A DNA stretch of 64,000 nt from Bacillota bacterium (lineage in GTDB: Bacteria; Bacillota; Clostridia; Peptostreptococcales; Anaerovoracaceae), in contig JAFWZZ010000005.1 in NCBI GenBank assembly GCA_017522185.1, forward strand, positions 121,447 to 185,446, read 5' to 3'. Positions 5,006 to 54,373 of this stretch are shown here, piece after piece (position 1 is the first letter of the stretch; each line of letters starts with the position of its first letter). Below the pieces are notes generated by a model. That model was not told where the DNA came from. It made no database searches and saw only the letters and a program-made list of their open reading frames with translations. The position numbers and the translations under genes are program-made.

Positions 5006-5975
5006 CGGTTACCGGCCGGAACGGCTGCTGAGCAGGGCACTGGAGAAGGGCCTTGCCTGCCGCAACGTCATCTGTCACGATGAGACGGAAATCTACTGCA
5101 CCCTCAGCATGACAGACTATAGAAAACTGAAGAAACTGGCCGGACACGGATACCGCCTGACCATCATCAAAGAAGGCGGCACCCGTCCGGGACTGAGAAG
5201 CTTACGAATGAACAAACTGATGCTTTGCGGCATGATGTTGTTCATTCTTTTTTATCTGCTGCAATTCTGCTTTATCAGGGAAATCAGCGTCCTGGGCTGC
5301 GAGACCATACCGGAAGATGAACTGCGGACCATCCTGAGAGAAGAAGGCCTCTACGAGGGCTGCCCGAAGACCTTTGACTGTGAGAGGATCGAGAAGCGCA
5401 TCTTTGATGCCTATGAGCAGGTTGTATGGACACGGGTAGCGTACCAGGGAAGTTTTGTGCAGGTGGAGGTCGCGGAAGGAAAGCTGCAGCAACAAAAGGT
5501 CCTGAACCGGGAGAAGCCTTGCCATCTGGTTGCGGAACAGGACTGCTATATCGAGACCGTGCGGACATTCAAGGGCCGTGCGAAGGTGGAAAAAGGTGAT
5601 TTTGTACGAAAAGGGGGCATACTGATATCGGGGAAGGTGCCTATCGAACATCCGACTTATCCGGTAGACGAGGAGACACCGAAGCACCACTATGTCCATG
5701 CCGAGGGAGAGGTAACGGCCCGTGTGCCGTACTATTATTCCATCTACGTGGAGCACTCTGCGACGGAGGCCCGGCAAAAGGCAGAAATCCGCAAATGGAT
5801 GAAGAAAAATATCCCTGAAAACGCTGAAATTTTAAATAAAGACTTTCATTTTGAGGCGAAAAAAAATATAATAAAACTATATGGAATGATAGAAACCCGG
5901 CAACCAGTCGGGATAGAAAAGGAGATCAGTATTGACAAACGACAAAGCACAGGAAATGAGAAAAATGCAGATTGA
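4947..5975 (+). CDS. yqfD: Sporulation protein YqfD
   Basis: A 342-residue protein of the YqfD family, a sigma-E-controlled sporulation protein paired with YqfC. It has a short N-terminal domain starting with the family stretch VRIRIDGYRPERLL. A single membrane helix lies at about residues 88-110 (LMLCGMMLFILFYLLQFC), and an extracytoplasmic part follows. The start is uncertain: the only normal start codon upstream of the conserved block is TTG 4947, which overlaps yqfC by 59 bases. The 3' end overlaps the phoH start by 44 bases. It is somewhat shorter than the family members I remember. Confidence 0.85.
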   Translation: MRGTSRESNFIRHRVRIRIDGYRPERLLSRALEKGLACRNVICHDETEIYCTLSMTDYRKLKKLAGHGYRLTIIKEGGTRPGLRSLRMNKLMLCGMMLFILFYLLQFCFIREISVLGCETIPEDELRTILREEGLYEGCPKTFDCERIEKRIFDAYEQVVWTRVAYQGSFVQVEVAEGKLQQQKVLNREKPCHLVAEQDCYIETVRTFKGRAKVEKGDFVRKGGILISGKVPIEHPTYPVDEETPKHHYVHAEGEVTARVPYYYSIYVEHSATEARQKAEIRKWMKKNIPENAEILNKDFHFEAKKNIIKLYGMIETRQPVGIEKEISIDKRQSTGNEKNAD

Positions 5976-20150: not shown

Positions 20151-21191
20151 TTACTCCTTTATTTCTATTTCATACTGATTATTTAACAATGAATCGTTCA
20201 CCTTATATAATACATCTAAATGCGGGTATTTTTCAAGGAAATACCGTTTGTTTTTTTGCTTGTGGCCGATGAGGGTGGACATGGATCTGCGGTTGGCAAA
20301 GAAGTCAACCTTTGTCTTTCTTGATGGATCAAAGTCGGTAGCGCTGAGCTTCTCCTCGATGCGCTCTCTGGCAATTTCACCTTCGACCAGCTGACGGAAT
20401 GCCGGATGATAGGTACCGCCGTTGATCTCACCGTCTTCACCGTCGTTGATGAAATCCGTGCTCTTCAGGCCGACGCGGATGATGTTGATGCCGGCATCGT
20501 CCAGAATCTTATACATCTCCTTGGTTCTTCGGATTGCTTCGTCCTGCGTAAGGGGCTCGTATTCTCCGCGTTTGTACTGGTTATAAAGCTCCGTGTCATT
20601 GATGACGATGGTCGGGTAGAGGCGGGCGATGGTAGGGCCTATCCTGATTGTTTCGTGGGCCGAGTAGATGCACTTTTCCAAAGTGTCGCCAGGCAAGCCA
20701 ATCATCAGCTGGATACCAAGTTCGAATCCGTAGTCTTTGATGAGCTGGCTGCTTTCGTAGACCACGGCCGCGTCATGGCCGCGGCCGGCTCTGGTCAGAA
20801 CCTCGTCGTCTAATGACTGGACGCCCAGTTCGATGGTATCCACATCATAGGCCTTAAGATTGTCGAGAATCTCTTTGCTGATATAGTCGGGACGTGTGGA
20901 CATGTGAATCTTGTGGATTCGTCCCGCATCCTTGTAGGATTTGGCAATTTTCAAATAGGCAGACTGTTCCTCCATTGGAATGCCCGTAAAACTGCCGCCG
21001 AAAAAGGCCACCTCGATGGTTTCTACACCTCGCGGTTCCAGGGTGGAAAGCCAGGTTTCTATGGTGTTTTTCACATCTTCAACCGTTATCGCCGCCTGTC
21101 TTGCCGTAATCTTCTTCTGATTGCAGAAGATGCAGTCGTTAGGACAGCCTTTGTGGGGGATGAAGATGGGGATGATTGCGTGGGTTTTCAC
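20151..21191 (-). CDS. Elp3-like radical SAM protein
   Basis: A 346-residue radical SAM protein with the cluster motif CxxxCxxC in CPNDCIFC near residues 16-23. It resembles the Elp3 radical SAM core (VAFFGGSFTGIP, STRPDYIS, ELGVQSLDDEVLTRAGRGH) without the acetyltransferase domain. This stand-alone family is common in clostridia, usually near rnc or smc; neither is adjacent here, which is unusual. The start is GTG 21191, a few bases after a GGAGG that lies in a predicted leader structure. Its role is unknown, possibly tRNA modification. Confidence 0.88.
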   Translation of the reverse strand: MKTHAIIPIFIPHKGCPNDCIFCNQKKITARQAAITVEDVKNTIETWLSTLEPRGVETIEVAFFGGSFTGIPMEEQSAYLKIAKSYKDAGRIHKIHMSTRPDYISKEILDNLKAYDVDTIELGVQSLDDEVLTRAGRGHDAAVVYESSQLIKDYGFELGIQLMIGLPGDTLEKCIYSAHETIRIGPTIARLYPTIVINDTELYNQYKRGEYEPLTQDEAIRRTKEMYKILDDAGINIIRVGLKSTDFINDGEDGEINGGTYHPAFRQLVEGEIARERIEEKLSATDFDPSRKTKVDFFANRRSMSTLIGHKQKNKRYFLEKYPHLDVLYKVNDSLLNNQYEIEIKE

Positions 21192-21196
21192 TTGTC

Positions 21197-21299
21197 TTTT
21201 GCCTCCATTGCTTCAGTTTCCCGCATGTTCTGCGGTACTCACGTACTTCGGGTACGCTCCGATCCTCGACATTTGTAAACCTGTGCACTGAAGGCAAAA
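21197..21299 (-). promoter_or_regulatory. Structured leader that may sequester the ribosome site
   Basis: Just upstream of the radical SAM gene, plus-strand TTTTGCC (21197-21203) and TTCAGT (21212-21217) pair with ACTGAA (21287-21292) and GGCAAAA (21293-21299). This gives 13 bp with an eight-base one-sided bulge. The Shine-Dalgarno GGAGG (complement of 21202-21206) lies across the stem and bulge. Two hairpins sit inside: CCGCA/TGCGG (21221-21235) and CGTAC/GTACG over a TTCGG loop (21242-21256). I do not recognise a known riboswitch class. Confidence 0.5.
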
Positions 21300-21336
21300 T
21301 CCTGCGTGAAGATGTTAAGGTTGCCTCCATTGCTTC
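21199..21336. repeat. 16-bp direct repeat flanking the leader
   Basis: TTGCCTCCATTGCTTC occurs at 21199-21214 and again at 21321-21336, 122 bases apart. The downstream copy (minus-strand sense) contains the ribosome site of the radical SAM gene. The segment between could be an inserted or duplicated unit. Confidence 0.8.
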
Positions 21337-21360: not shown

Positions 21361-21602
21361 AAAGTTCTAGAAATGTATACCGATAAAACCGTTTTCTAGA
21401 ACTTTTAGTCTTGGATTTCTAGAAATCTGCATATGAAATGGGTAATTTCTAGAATTTTGGCAGGGGAAGTTCTAGAAACTATGTGCTTATAATCTTAATT
21501 TCTAGAATTTCGACTGGAATTATTCCAGAAACGCGGACCGGGCGGCACGTTTTCTGGAAAAAGTTCTAGAAAACCGCGGAATCAGCTCCGTTTTCTAGAA
21601 CT
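21361..21602. repeat. Array of five TTCTAGAA hairpins
   Basis: Ten copies of the palindrome TTCTAGAA or a one-base variant start at 21365, 21394, 21417, 21447, 21470, 21500, 21523, 21552, 21564 and 21593. They alternate at 29-30 and 23 bases, except the last unit, which follows after 12. Read as pairs they give five hairpins with stems such as AGTTCTAGAAAAC/GTTTTCTAGAACT and variable loops of 21-22 bases. In the fourth unit the boxes are TTCCAGAA and TTCTGGAA, a compensatory change that keeps pairing. The array begins 12 bases beyond the stop of the leftward gene at 21614. Confidence 0.93.
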
Positions 21603-21613
21603 AAACATATTAT

Positions 21614-22267
21614 CTATATGATCGATCCGATATCGGTCAGGGGATACTGGTCGAACCAGGTGCACTTCAGGCCGCGTTCCTCGATGAAGGAATGGATCGC
21701 GGCAAAATCGGGATGGGCAGCCAGGTCTCCGTTAAAGATGACCTCGTCGTCGACGCGGCCACTGCAGCCACCGATGAATCCGGTTTTGTAACCGGGCAGC
21801 AGAACATGTCCAGGTGAGACGAGAAGCACATCCGGACCGCCGGACGCGGTCTCAGTGCAGGCTCTTGCGATGCCCCGGTCATAGGTAATGATGGATCGCT
21901 CATCTATAATCACCGTACTGCATTTGGCATAGCCCTGCGGTACGTGGATCAGCTCCATGCCGGCAGTATGGGCAGCATCCAGCAGGCGGGGACTCGTAAT
22001 CTTCAGGTTATGAATAAAGTAACGCCCCGTGCAGGTTCCGTTAAAAGCTGCCTCGGCAGGATAGCCGCACCCCAGTTCGCTTTCCGTAGCCCGAACTAGC
22101 GGCGCGTCGGTACCGATGCCCAGACGGCAGAAAAAAACGTCCGGATGACAGGCGATAGCAGGATCCACCAGACCTTCCGACGAAACCAGTTCCAAATCAT
22201 AGCCTTTCGCCGTCAGGTAATCCTGTAGTATTTTGTTTGCGTCTTTTGCAAGATATATCTTTCTCAT
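21614..22267 (-). CDS. GME-fold protein, DUF6873-like
   Basis: A 217-residue protein that I recognise as similar to the DUF6873 family, predicted to have the guanidino-group-modifying-enzyme fold. Supporting stretches are HPDVFFCRLG, YFIHNLKITSP, HVPQGYAKCSTVIIDERSIITYD, KTGFIGGCSGR and the terminal PLTDIGSII. The function is unknown. No ribosome site precedes the ATG, and a -10-like TACAAT (minus strand, 22279-22274) ends seven bases before it, so the mRNA may be leaderless. It is divergent from the MATE gene and its 3' end is directly followed by the hairpin array. Confidence 0.7.
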   Translation of the reverse strand: MRKIYLAKDANKILQDYLTAKGYDLELVSSEGLVDPAIACHPDVFFCRLGIGTDAPLVRATESELGCGYPAEAAFNGTCTGRYFIHNLKITSPRLLDAAHTAGMELIHVPQGYAKCSTVIIDERSIITYDRGIARACTETASGGPDVLLVSPGHVLLPGYKTGFIGGCSGRVDDEVIFNGDLAAHPDFAAIHSFIEERGLKCTWFDQYPLTDIGSII

Positions 22268-52476: not shown

Positions 52477-53367
52477 ATGAACAAGAGAATCGATTTAATT
52501 GGTGTTCAGATGGACTTAGGCGCTGCAACACGTGGCGTAAACATGGGTCCGGCTGCAATCAGATATGCAGGTGTTGCACAGGGCGTAAGAGATTTAGGAT
52601 ATGAATGTAAGGACAAGGGCGACATCATTCCAATCTCTGAAGGCGCAACTGCTGATGATATGAGAAACTATGAACAGGTTATCGATGCAAATACAAAGTT
52701 ATATCAGGCTGCTTTAGCATCTCACGAAGAAGGTGCATTCCCTGTTGTTTTAGGTGGCGACCACTCTATCGCAGCAGGCAGCATCCAGGCTACAGCAAAG
52801 AAGTTCGGCAAGATCGGTATCATCTGGATCGACGCACACGGCGACTGGAACAGCCCTGAATCTTCCGAATCCGGCAACATGCACGGTATGCCATTCTCCG
52901 CAGTATGCGGCGCTGGTCCTGACTGCATGATTGACTTCGGCCAGGGTCCTGTCATCGTAGATCCTAAGAACTGCGTACAGATTGCCGGCAGAGACATCGA
53001 CAGAGAAGAAAGAAAGAGAATGAAGGAATACGGCGTAACTGTATTCTCCATCGCTGACGTTGACAGAATGGGTATGCCTGCAGTAATCGAAGAAGCAATC
53101 AAAATCGCTACAAACGGCACAGAAGGTATCCACGTTTCCTTCGACGTAGACGCAATCACTCCAGAAAGCGCACCAGGAACAGGTACAAGAGTACACTCCG
53201 GTTTAACACTGAGAGAAGCATTCTACTTAGTAGAAATGTTATACGAATCCAAGAAGGTTCTGGCATTAGACATGGTAGAAGTAAACCCAATGTTAGATAT
53301 CAGAAACCAGACAGGCGAAGTTGCAAGCGAACTGATCCTGGCTACAATCGGTAAGACTGTATATTAA
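52477..53367 (+). CDS. rocF: Arginase
   Basis: A 296-residue ureohydrolase. Manganese ligands are seen in GGDHSIAAGS, DAHGDWNSPESSESGNMHGMPF and SFDVDAITPESAPGTGTRVHSGLTLREA. The SGNMHGMP and the tail of the last block favour arginase over agmatinase. It would split arginine into ornithine and urea. The gene has a strong ribosome site (GGAGGAAAAG) and pronounced codon bias (AGA, TTA, GCA), like pyc and glyS, which suggests it is highly expressed. The broken decarboxylase upstream could have used its ornithine. Confidence 0.92.
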   Translation: MNKRIDLIGVQMDLGAATRGVNMGPAAIRYAGVAQGVRDLGYECKDKGDIIPISEGATADDMRNYEQVIDANTKLYQAALASHEEGAFPVVLGGDHSIAAGSIQATAKKFGKIGIIWIDAHGDWNSPESSESGNMHGMPFSAVCGAGPDCMIDFGQGPVIVDPKNCVQIAGRDIDREERKRMKEYGVTVFSIADVDRMGMPAVIEEAIKIATNGTEGIHVSFDVDAITPESAPGTGTRVHSGLTLREAFYLVEMLYESKKVLALDMVEVNPMLDIRNQTGEVASELILATIGKTVY

Positions 53368-53409: not shown

Positions 53410-53436
53410 GTATGGTGTGGCTGGCATATCAAAGCA

Positions 53437-53658
53437 AAGTTCTAGAAAATAGAAGATTATATGCTGTTTTCCAGAAAAAATGTCACGAGTGTTCTAGAAT
53501 TACAGTCAATCCAAGGTGTTTTTCTAGAACTTTGGCGACAAAATCTCCATTTCTGAAGCAGTAGTTCTAGAAAATAACCTGTTCAGTCTTTGTTTTCTAG
53601 AACTCAATTATAAAAAGTTCTAGAAATATAACTGTATCCTGCCAGTTTTCTAGAACTT
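53437..53658. repeat. Array of four TTCTAGAA hairpins
   Basis: Boxes start at 53440, 53469 (TTCCAGAA variant), 53492, 53522, 53565, 53595, 53618 and 53648. Paired boxes are 29-30 bases apart and neighbouring pairs 23 apart, except a 43-base gap after the second pair, which contains a degenerate TTCTGAAG at 53551. The stems are AGTTCTAGAAA with TTTTCTAGAACT and the loops are unrelated in sequence. It shares GCAAAGTTCTAGAAA at its left end with the array at 21361. It begins 15 bases beyond the stop of the leftward gene at 53674. Confidence 0.93.
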
Positions 53659-53673
53659 TTCATATCTTACTTC

Positions 53674-54186
53674 TTATTTCCGCTTTGCGCGGACTTCCTT
53701 CAGCGCCGTTTCGTCGATGGCGCCGGAGGCGATGGTGTTGTTGACCCACAGCTGCAAGGAATCCACAGTCAGGGAAAGCTGTTCCAGCTGATCCTGGATG
53801 TTCGCGAAATCTTCCAGCTCGTGGCCTTCGATTTTGCCGTCGGCAACGATTTCGATGAGACGGTCTTTTTCTTTATTCAAAGCGTTTAGTGACGCCAGAA
53901 TCTCGATTGTAATCTGAGACAGGTCCTTTGCCTGGATGGCAGGCACGTATTCCTGACCAATCTGGCAAACGTGAGAGCAGTAATAGTTACAAAGTCCCGG
54001 ATCGCCGTAGGCTTTAGACATCTGGTAGACGTCTTCCGGATGAGGTTCGATTTTTCCGCTTTCGATCTTTTCGATGCGGCTTTCGGAAATAAAAGTAGCC
54101 TCGCTGGCCTGGGCCCGCGTCATCTCGGCCTTCTGTCTTCTGTCGCAATAGATGTTGTCTGCTAAGTTTAGTGATTTCTTTCCCAT
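53674..54186 (-). CDS. XRE-family helix-turn-helix protein
   Basis: A 170-residue protein. The N-terminal XRE DNA-binding domain is in MTRAQASEATFISESRIEKIESGKIEPHPEDVYQMSKAYGD. A cysteine group follows (CNYYCSHVC), then a helical C-terminal half (about 95-165) likely to dimerise. The start is the ATG at 54186 on the minus strand, after GGGAG; a longer frame extends upstream without support. It is a single gene whose 3' end is followed directly by a hairpin array. Targets are unknown. Confidence 0.88.
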   Translation of the reverse strand: MGKKSLNLADNIYCDRRQKAEMTRAQASEATFISESRIEKIESGKIEPHPEDVYQMSKAYGDPGLCNYYCSHVCQIGQEYVPAIQAKDLSQITIEILASLNALNKEKDRLIEIVADGKIEGHELEDFANIQDQLEQLSLTVDSLQLWVNNTIASGAIDETALKEVRAKRK

Positions 54187-54373
54187 GTCGTTCTCCCTTT
54201 TTTCCCACGCCGGTGCCGGCTTGTTCGTTCTTTCTGCCCACATTATACCCTATAAACCCTAATTCGTCAAAAAGAGCAAAATACACCCAGCTATTCCTCT
54301 GCATTGTGCCTTTATTTCCCCCGCAGGGCGCGATACAATAAAGATGCAAAAGGGAAAAGAAAGGAGAAAAACA

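Follow-up and report, generated by a model that had tools for sequence, protein, structure and literature searches.

What is the regular series of short palindromic boxes at positions 21361..21602 of the window (the whole 64,000-nucleotide stretch of DNA analyzed here), and what might read it? A preliminary description had recognized an array of ten paired boxes and had offered three roles for it: 3' UTR stem-loops, a protein-binding array or single-strand recombination sites.

Structure of array W1

The array, designated W1, was delimited by a box search and by its flanking genes, a radical SAM gene (20151-21191, strand -) and a DUF6873 gene (21614-22267, strand -). Neither W1 nor any other array feature described below is assigned to a strand. 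The boxes start at 21365, 21394, 21417, 21447, 21470, 21500, 21523, 21552, 21564 and 21593. Eight of the ten are exact copies of TTCTAGAA, and the remaining two are TTCCAGAA and TTCTGGAA. They form five inverted pairs: W1.1 (21365..21401; TTCTAGAA N21 TTCTAGAA with the outer flanks AAAG and CTTT), W1.2 (21417..21454; loop 22), W1.3 (21470..21507; loop 22), W1.4 (21523..21559; TTCCAGAA N21 TTCTGGAA) and W1.5 (21564..21600; loop 21), which begins 4 bases beyond W1.4. The ten-box array of paired palindromes is, thus, real, with its boxes mapped at 21365-21600.

From box start to box start, the within-pair steps are 29, 30, 30, 29 and 29, and the between-pair steps are 23, 23, 23 and then 12, the last (from W1.4 to W1.5) approximately one helical turn under 23. 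The regularity originally reported accordingly holds for most of the array and breaks down at its end. The alternation of 29-30 and 23 bases fits all within-pair and the first three between-pair steps, but not the fourth; the 15-base linkers are the first three, whereas the last has 4 bases; and the pair-to-pair period of 52-53 describes three steps, with the fourth being 41. The loops were correctly described as 21-22 unrelated bases, since those of W1 have 21 or 22 bases and none is among the related loop pairs that we found. Stems had been given as 10-13 bp, while a hand count on the pair list gives 9-13 bp. The compensatory change at W1.4 was also confirmed; however, it argues only weakly for selection on pairing because W1.4 is the sole compensatory pair among the eight diverged pairs of the genome. 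At the gathering score, Rfam returned a tRNA as the sole match in the window, and neither of the arrays in it matched a family.

A 16-bp direct repeat, TTGCCTCCATTGCTTC, occurs beside W1 at 21199 and 21321 (window 21199-21336). The approximately 100 bp that it encloses resembles the sequence at the same junction of the congener locus L167, and there is no second copy of the 21199-21336 sequence on the contigs of the same genome examined.

Arrays across the genome

The genome (2.12 Mb, 35 contigs) holds eight arrays, all in gene-free spots: four on contig C21, two on C31, and one each on C33 and C34. No skew switch was found on C21. The arrays comprise 35 inverted pairs and one orphan box (in array B11), namely, 71 boxes, 61 of which are exact. 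The preliminary description had overlooked the second array in the window (boxes at 53440-53655), the six further arrays of the genome and the versions in relatives.

TTCTAGAA is present 72 times in the genome, 61 times in arrays and 11 times outside, against 45 copies of a reversed control pattern, and all of the exact inverted pairs of the genome (28/28) lie inside arrays. Within the window, TTCTAGAA with up to one mismatch was found 46 times versus 27.7 (sd 4.2) in shuffles, and 18 of these 46 belong to the two arrays. CTAG, the core of every box, is 5- to 14-fold rarer than expected from base composition on the four contigs examined (40, 49, 38, 70 and 36 seen versus 216, 256, 527, 460 and 247 expected); therefore, raw counts understate how distinct the arrays are. 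No ninth array emerged when boxes separated by 15 bases were sought at a tolerance of up to three mismatches. The exact three-box pattern gave 14 forward and 15 reverse matches, which are the same arrays on both strands, and none with the reversed control or in 40 other genomes. This genome scan upheld the view that the spacing does not arise by chance.

Spacing is nearly fixed throughout. Loops have 21 bases in 19/35 pairs and 22 in 16/35, and the 27 between-pair steps are 23 (19 cases), 22 (two), 43 (four), 33 (one) and 12 (one). Boxes are oriented by their flanks, with AAAG outside and A inside: the outside G is present at 23/35 left and 20/35 right boxes, and the inside A at 30/35 left and 34/35 right boxes. 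The left-box to left-box distance is 51-53 in 21/27 cases. The other six distances (41, 63, 72, 73, 73 and 73) all fall within 1.5 bp of multiples of 10.5. In a post hoc simulation, which rests on three or four independent events and counts the 72/73 group as one, three independent distances lay within 1 bp of a 10.5-bp grid with a p value of approximately 0.01.

The gaps that hold arrays are convergent, divergent and co-directional, and have no flanking gene or orientation in common; flanking genes were called as open reading frames, and the assignment of the right neighbor of array B40 is tentative. A role in 3' UTRs does not suit every site, with one array standing in a divergent promoter region and another lying among genes that form an operon in relatives. 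Array A79 has an HTH gene on either side (L010:3851-4726 and 5030-5251), W2 has one on a single side, and a DeoR/GlpR-like gene adjoins array A58. The HTH genes beside A79 and W2 are possible candidates for box readers, or their position may be a coincidence.

Array W2 and its diverged copy

The second array in the window, W2 (53436..53668 including its right edge, ACTTTTCATATCTTACTT), lies between two convergent genes, an arginase gene (52477-53367, strand +) and an HTH gene (53674-54243, strand -). Its eight boxes, seven of which are exact TTCTAGAA, span 53440-53655 and form the pairs W2.1 (53440..53476; TTCTAGAA N21 TTCCAGAA, uncompensated), W2.2 (53492..53529; loop 22), W2.3 (53565..53602; loop 22) and W2.4 (53618..53655; loop 22). 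A long linker (53530..53564) separates W2.2 from W2.3; its start-to-start step of 43, approximately two helical turns over 23, is common to W2 and B11, which is located on another contig. These two arrays also have the edge ACTTTTCATATCTTACTT in common, and an outer edge is common to W2, B11 and B40.

W2 and B11 are diverged copies that match over approximately 200 bp. Identity is 55/56 positions in the boxes versus 117/143 elsewhere (Fisher p 0.001). When loops were compared, two pairs clearly exceeded the control shuffles, each joining a loop of W2 to one of B11 (W2.2 with B11.3, and W2.3 with B11.4), a third was borderline, and no relation was detected among nearly all other loops of the genome. 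In this genome, therefore, boxes and distances are retained as spacers change. Blastn of W2 against plasmids and against phages gave no match.

Evidence for insertion

Proteins of congeners are only 45-63% identical to those of this genome, and, thus, intergenic DNA is unalignable and we compared gene junctions instead. Array D116 fills the junction between an M50-like gene (a Pfam match below the cut-off) and an Spx/ArsC gene, starting a few bases past the stop. These two genes abut or overlap in six of the seven relatives fetched, the gene end of the seventh having been misread. D116 stands shortly before a gene start, within what relatives have as an operon. At the W1 junction, the 420 bases that follow the DUF6873 gene contain no such array in any of the 11 relatives fetched; the radical SAM gene follows approximately 30-45 bases on in three, and the neighbor is not recognizably that gene in at least four. 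No arrays were found in the 12 congeners searched. Two junctions that lack the array in relatives point to insertion.

Typical marks of transposition were sought in the eight arrays. Repeats in the two flanks of the same array average 5.75 nt versus 5.2 between arrays, and hence reveal no target-site duplication. The arrays end in inverted boxes, but have no longer terminal repeat in common. Among 22 chosen genomes searched for PF01797 (RAYT, Y1), this genome has one 41-position fragment with stops, below the cut-off; G016 and G477 (relatives described below) have none, and G497 has two. No transposase or integrase was tied to the arrays by this search, which covered PF01797.

The broken Y1 transposase fragment (G000:C34:118803-118925; L303) is located approximately 2.3 kb from D116. 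The congener loci L162, L165 and L169 have an intergenic repeat in common, CCGTAAAAATnACAAAATC..AGATTTTGGATTTTCTGGC, near the place that corresponds to W1.

The same spacing with another box letter in relatives

The family survey covered 349 genomes, including this one (G000), with the pattern TTCTANAA N18-25 TTNTAGAA, which allows pair spacings of 26-33. It matched 51/349 genomes, mostly once. Matches numbered 31 in G000, 11 in G016, 10 in G477 and 7 in G497 against control counts of 0, 0, 0 and 1, respectively. Looking for the pattern in related genomes, as previously advised, thus bore fruit in part: 3 of the 348 other genomes have many pairs at the 29/30-bp spacing, whereas the 12 congeners have none. 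A structure-aware model gave at least 17, 15, 17 and 14 matches in G000, G016, G477 and G497, respectively (lower bounds, with 17 candidates scored per genome and both strands counted), and one or two weak matches each in 12 other genomes of the 349; the box-pair pattern was present in 4 of the 14 loci viewed in these 12, once each. A profile search of 391 genomes of the class, a sample in which G477 and G497 were not visibly included, found this genome, G016 and single weak matches in 12 others. Model R2 over 398 genomes of the phylum found this genome, G016 and weak matches in two others.

The same pair spacing, with another box letter, is present in two other genera. Position six of the box is G in this genome, T in G016 (C in four boxes of one element) and A in G477 and G497; the boxes of the relatives are TTCTATAA in G016, with one element mostly TTCTACAA, and TTCTAAAA in G477 and G497. 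That TTCTA-AA does not vary among genera was imposed by the search pattern and carries no evidential weight. The free letter was not tied by the pattern, and it is matched on the partner box in 18/18 distinct places of the three relatives. Spacing is 29/30 in 18/18 listed places, where 26-33 was allowed, and in 23/23 pairs read, where 27-32 was allowed. In the pooled alignment A4 (41 rows, including 17 of the 35 pairs of this genome), the free position is Watson-Crick in 40 rows and T/G in one; this figure arises partly by selection, since the G477, G497 and most G016 rows were preselected at no more than one partner mismatch.

In G477 and G497, the pairs belong to elements of approximately 265 bp that are bounded by terminal inverted repeats, AAAAGGAGTTT...TTCTAAAAA, and have one box pair at either end. 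The end pairs are 197-199 bp apart in all seven elements with both pairs readable (L334 included; elements C83 and C84 of G477 end at contig ends and are outside this count), and an eighth element retains one box of its far pair, also at 199. Two of these seven cores, which are all from a single genus (C62 of G477 and C25 of G497 being the two), are at most weakly similar to the others in either orientation (z up to 3.4). Pair distances in G016 are 270, 270, 271 and 291, where the longest includes an insertion of 21 bases. Two pairs stand only 40 apart in a further G016 copy, and a lone pair is found at one place. In the C10 element of G016, the left pair is mismatched (TTCGATAA with TTGTAGAA). 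The unit TTCTANAA is not self-palindromic in G016, G477 or G497, and the copies of the relatives lie between open reading frames. Blastn of a G497 element against phages gave no match, and that of a G016 element against plasmids gave three short weak matches. The kinship of the elements of the four genomes rests on geometry and the box, with spacers that are not alignable.

Several G477 and G497 elements (L276, L277, L279, L280 and L282) are near contig ends. By eye, the end of C19 of G497 reappears inverted at the start of C69, which suggests a larger multi-copy repeat. Among other genomes of the survey, the matches in G441 and G536 (four each) vary in letter and spacing, and were attributed to chance. 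Those in G551 (seven) have conserved loops and spacings of 27-30 in the four pairs read, and were assigned to another hairpin family, with dispersed hairpins TTCTAAAAACC...GGTTTTTAGAA and a conserved GC-rich loop (L283-L286).

A proposed phased, protein-bound element

The explanation that we prefer, and rate as just short of probable, is that W1 and the seven other arrays are copies of a short intergenic element, non-coding and inserted, similar to BIMEs or MITEs, the boxes of which are bound by a sequence-specific protein in a phased complex. Its functional components would be oriented boxes (AAAG-TTCTAGAA-A), arranged as inverted pairs with a 29/30-bp spacing that recur close to the helical grid. 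Each inverted pair would be read by a sequence-specific DNA-binding protein, most probably in dimeric form; neighboring pairs would present the same helix face, such that the bound protein may form one phased complex in the cell. This putative protein would most likely be the enzyme, a recombinase or transposase, responsible for inserting the element by transposition; failing that, it would be a DNA-architectural protein. Spacing would be the main role of loops, linkers and cores, the lengths of which are retained and the sequences mostly not.

Drifting spacers with retained lengths, the pair spacing found in three genera and the near-helical steps together suggest a protein that reads double-stranded DNA in a phased complex. 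Of the roles offered in the preliminary description, a protein-binding array consequently fits best, with the 29/30 spacing in three genera and the near-helical odd distances as its evidence. From one genome to another, the box letter changes in almost every box together, which is the pattern expected of a letter set by a trans-acting reader. Insertion, patchiness and duplicate copies suggest that the element is mobile. Some distances are at odds with phasing: the adjacent pairs of G016 that are 40 apart miss the grid by 2 bp, and neither 270 nor 197 corresponds to a whole number of turns, whereas the step from 270 to 291 does.

More broadly, we consider it possible, albeit doubtful, that a putative protein reads TTCTANAAA in inverted 29/30-bp pairs; that selection retains the box and the helical distance while spacers turn over; and that the protein and the letter (G, T, C or A) switch together. 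The arrays would then represent an intergenic mobile or scaffold family, a non-RAYT counterpart of REPINs and BIMEs in this bacterial family with its own mobilizing or architectural protein. No maker is known for many of the short interspersed palindromic repeats that fall outside the REP/RAYT system. The conserved part here is a ruler, 29/30 bp within pairs and near-whole helical turns between them; therefore, a designed array could serve directly as bait to pull down the responsible protein, and mutants with altered spacing may separate a DNA complex from an RNA hairpin. The letter switch between genera is a natural experiment on the co-evolution of a protein and its site.

Alternative explanations

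The alternative that survives best, although we regard it as unlikely, is that the pairs act as hairpins of RNA or single-stranded DNA, either stabilizing or processing transcripts or serving as targets of a single-strand recombinase. The inverted pairs are perfect, D116 immediately precedes a gene start and separates genes that are contiguous in relatives, and both W1.4 and the partner-matched free letter (18/18 places; 40/41 rows of A4, with T/G in the remaining row) are also compatible with selection on pairing. Since there is mostly one letter per genome, a lone trans-acting reader accounts for the matched letter equally well. The predicted fold of a W1 transcript is far stronger than those of shuffles (z -6.8) because inverted repeats necessarily fold. 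However, seven of the eight diverged pairs of this genome are uncompensated, the left pair of the G016 C10 element is mismatched, and RNAalifold predicted no pair and no consensus structure for the alignment A1. Covariation, the check proposed in the preliminary description, gave a marginal outcome: percent paired and covariation in A1 are slightly above shuffles, but 13/500 and 18/500 shuffles are equal or higher. Helical spacing is meaningless for RNA, and the arrays are found in gaps of all three gene orientations.

We also consider it rather improbable that the arrays serve the host as binding sites in nucleoid organization or regulation, having spread and been retained for their usefulness and not as mobile DNA. 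The conservation of boxes against drifting spacers, the helical phasing, and the HTH genes beside W2 and on both sides of A79 and the DeoR/GlpR-like gene beside A58 all agree with such sites. Absence from the 12 congeners searched, a patchy distribution in the family, the lack of a common flanking gene or orientation, and the presence of only 11/72 boxes outside arrays do not.

It appears very unlikely that the arrays constitute a genuine REP/BIME/REPIN family, mobilized by a RAYT (Y1 transposase). Alternating palindromic units, intergenic clusters and unrelated inter-unit segments, the last as in some BIMEs (PMC2817692), resemble such a family. However, PF01797 is present here only as the broken 41-position fragment and is distributed among the relatives as two in G497 and none in G016 or G477, and the box, at 8 bp, has no GTAG head and does not form a stem-loop by itself.

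Chance or a decayed tandem repeat, for which A/T-rich boxes and the irregular steps of 12, 33 and 43 may speak, has a negligible probability and was refuted by the genome searches, with no matches to the control or in 40 genomes and the same pair spacing in three genera.

Comparison with known repeat families

BIMEs are described in PMC2817692 as palindromic units that alternate in orientation, sometimes with unrelated inter-unit segments, and REPs and BIMEs are reported there to bind protein. The arrays are similar to BIME/REP clusters in their alternating orientation and intergenic clustering. They differ in their unit, an 8-bp box (approximately 14 bp with flanks) versus a stem-loop of 20-40 nt with GTAG; in their number, 8 clusters versus over 100 copies; in the lack of an intact RAYT; and in linkers quantized near helical turns. 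The layout is, thus, like that of a BIME or MITE, yet an intact RAYT is lacking in the genome and the unit is not itself an imperfect-palindrome stem-loop with a GTAG-type head. We do not class the arrays as REP, BIME or REPIN because no box protein, target duplication or intact RAYT was found.

REPINs, as outlined in PMC3116915, are extragenic inverted REP doublets with a spacer that also occur in tandem clusters. An inverted doublet with a spacer is likewise the apparent unit of the arrays. In contrast to REPINs, they are without an intact RAYT, their spacer is fixed at 21-22 with little sequence conservation, and the exact pairs of this genome are confined to arrays.

MITEs are short elements with inverted repeats at both ends (PMC2229807 and PMC10969869), and their target-site duplications fade with age, as PMC10969869 states. 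Similar to MITEs, the G477 and G497 elements have terminal inverted repeats, are shorter than 500 bp and are non-coding. Unlike with MITEs, no target duplication was seen at the arrays of this genome, and repeated box pairs replace the body. A parent transposon with the same ends did not come up among the exact pairs of this genome (none outside arrays), the plasmid and phage comparisons of W2 or the search for PF01797.

BOX elements of Streptococcus pneumoniae are composed of boxA, boxB and boxC modules, in which they differ from the arrays. PMC3049150 judges these species-restricted interspersed repeats to be likely parasitic; the arrays are alike in being species-restricted and interspersed, a likeness by description only. 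The arrays do not have the layout of CRISPR arrays, which is one of direct repeats with unique spacers; their repeats of 8-14 bp are inverted in alternation with two classes of spacers. Literature searches, including one for the box itself, returned no paper on such arrays among the records listed.

Other CTAG-containing repeats

Scans with a wide-gap pattern yielded at least 112 stretches in genome contigs and 25 in viral contigs, and a stricter scan of viral contigs gave no matches. Many of the clusters of three or more exact boxes in these stretches are tandem repeats of 18 or 21 bp, and others have other layouts; they were set aside. A stretch of a Campylobacter MAG (L083), crowded with such boxes, has the steps 29 and 23 once, which was taken as chance. 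CAMCEN contigs, L025, L026, L029 and L032 among them, come from a Campylobacter MAG that abounds in GGAATTCTAGAATTCC-type repeats with irregular spacing.

Rhodobacteraceae genomes contain three tandem perfect palindromes centered on TTCTAGAA, 27-28 bp apart, with arms that differ among palindromes but match within them (L055:805-890, L075:2220-2305 and L068:3135-3215). This is a separate CTAG-centered family with strong arm covariation. Those of L055 and L075 adjoin apparent stop codons or a ribosome-binding site, and the same steps, the only feature compared, were found in L036, L050, L078, L085, L097, L104, L107 and L117. In a Roseburia MAG (L069:2040-2125), two inverted repeats are interlocked in the order A B A' B'; each arm ends in TTTTCTAGAA, and the box steps are 23 and 23.
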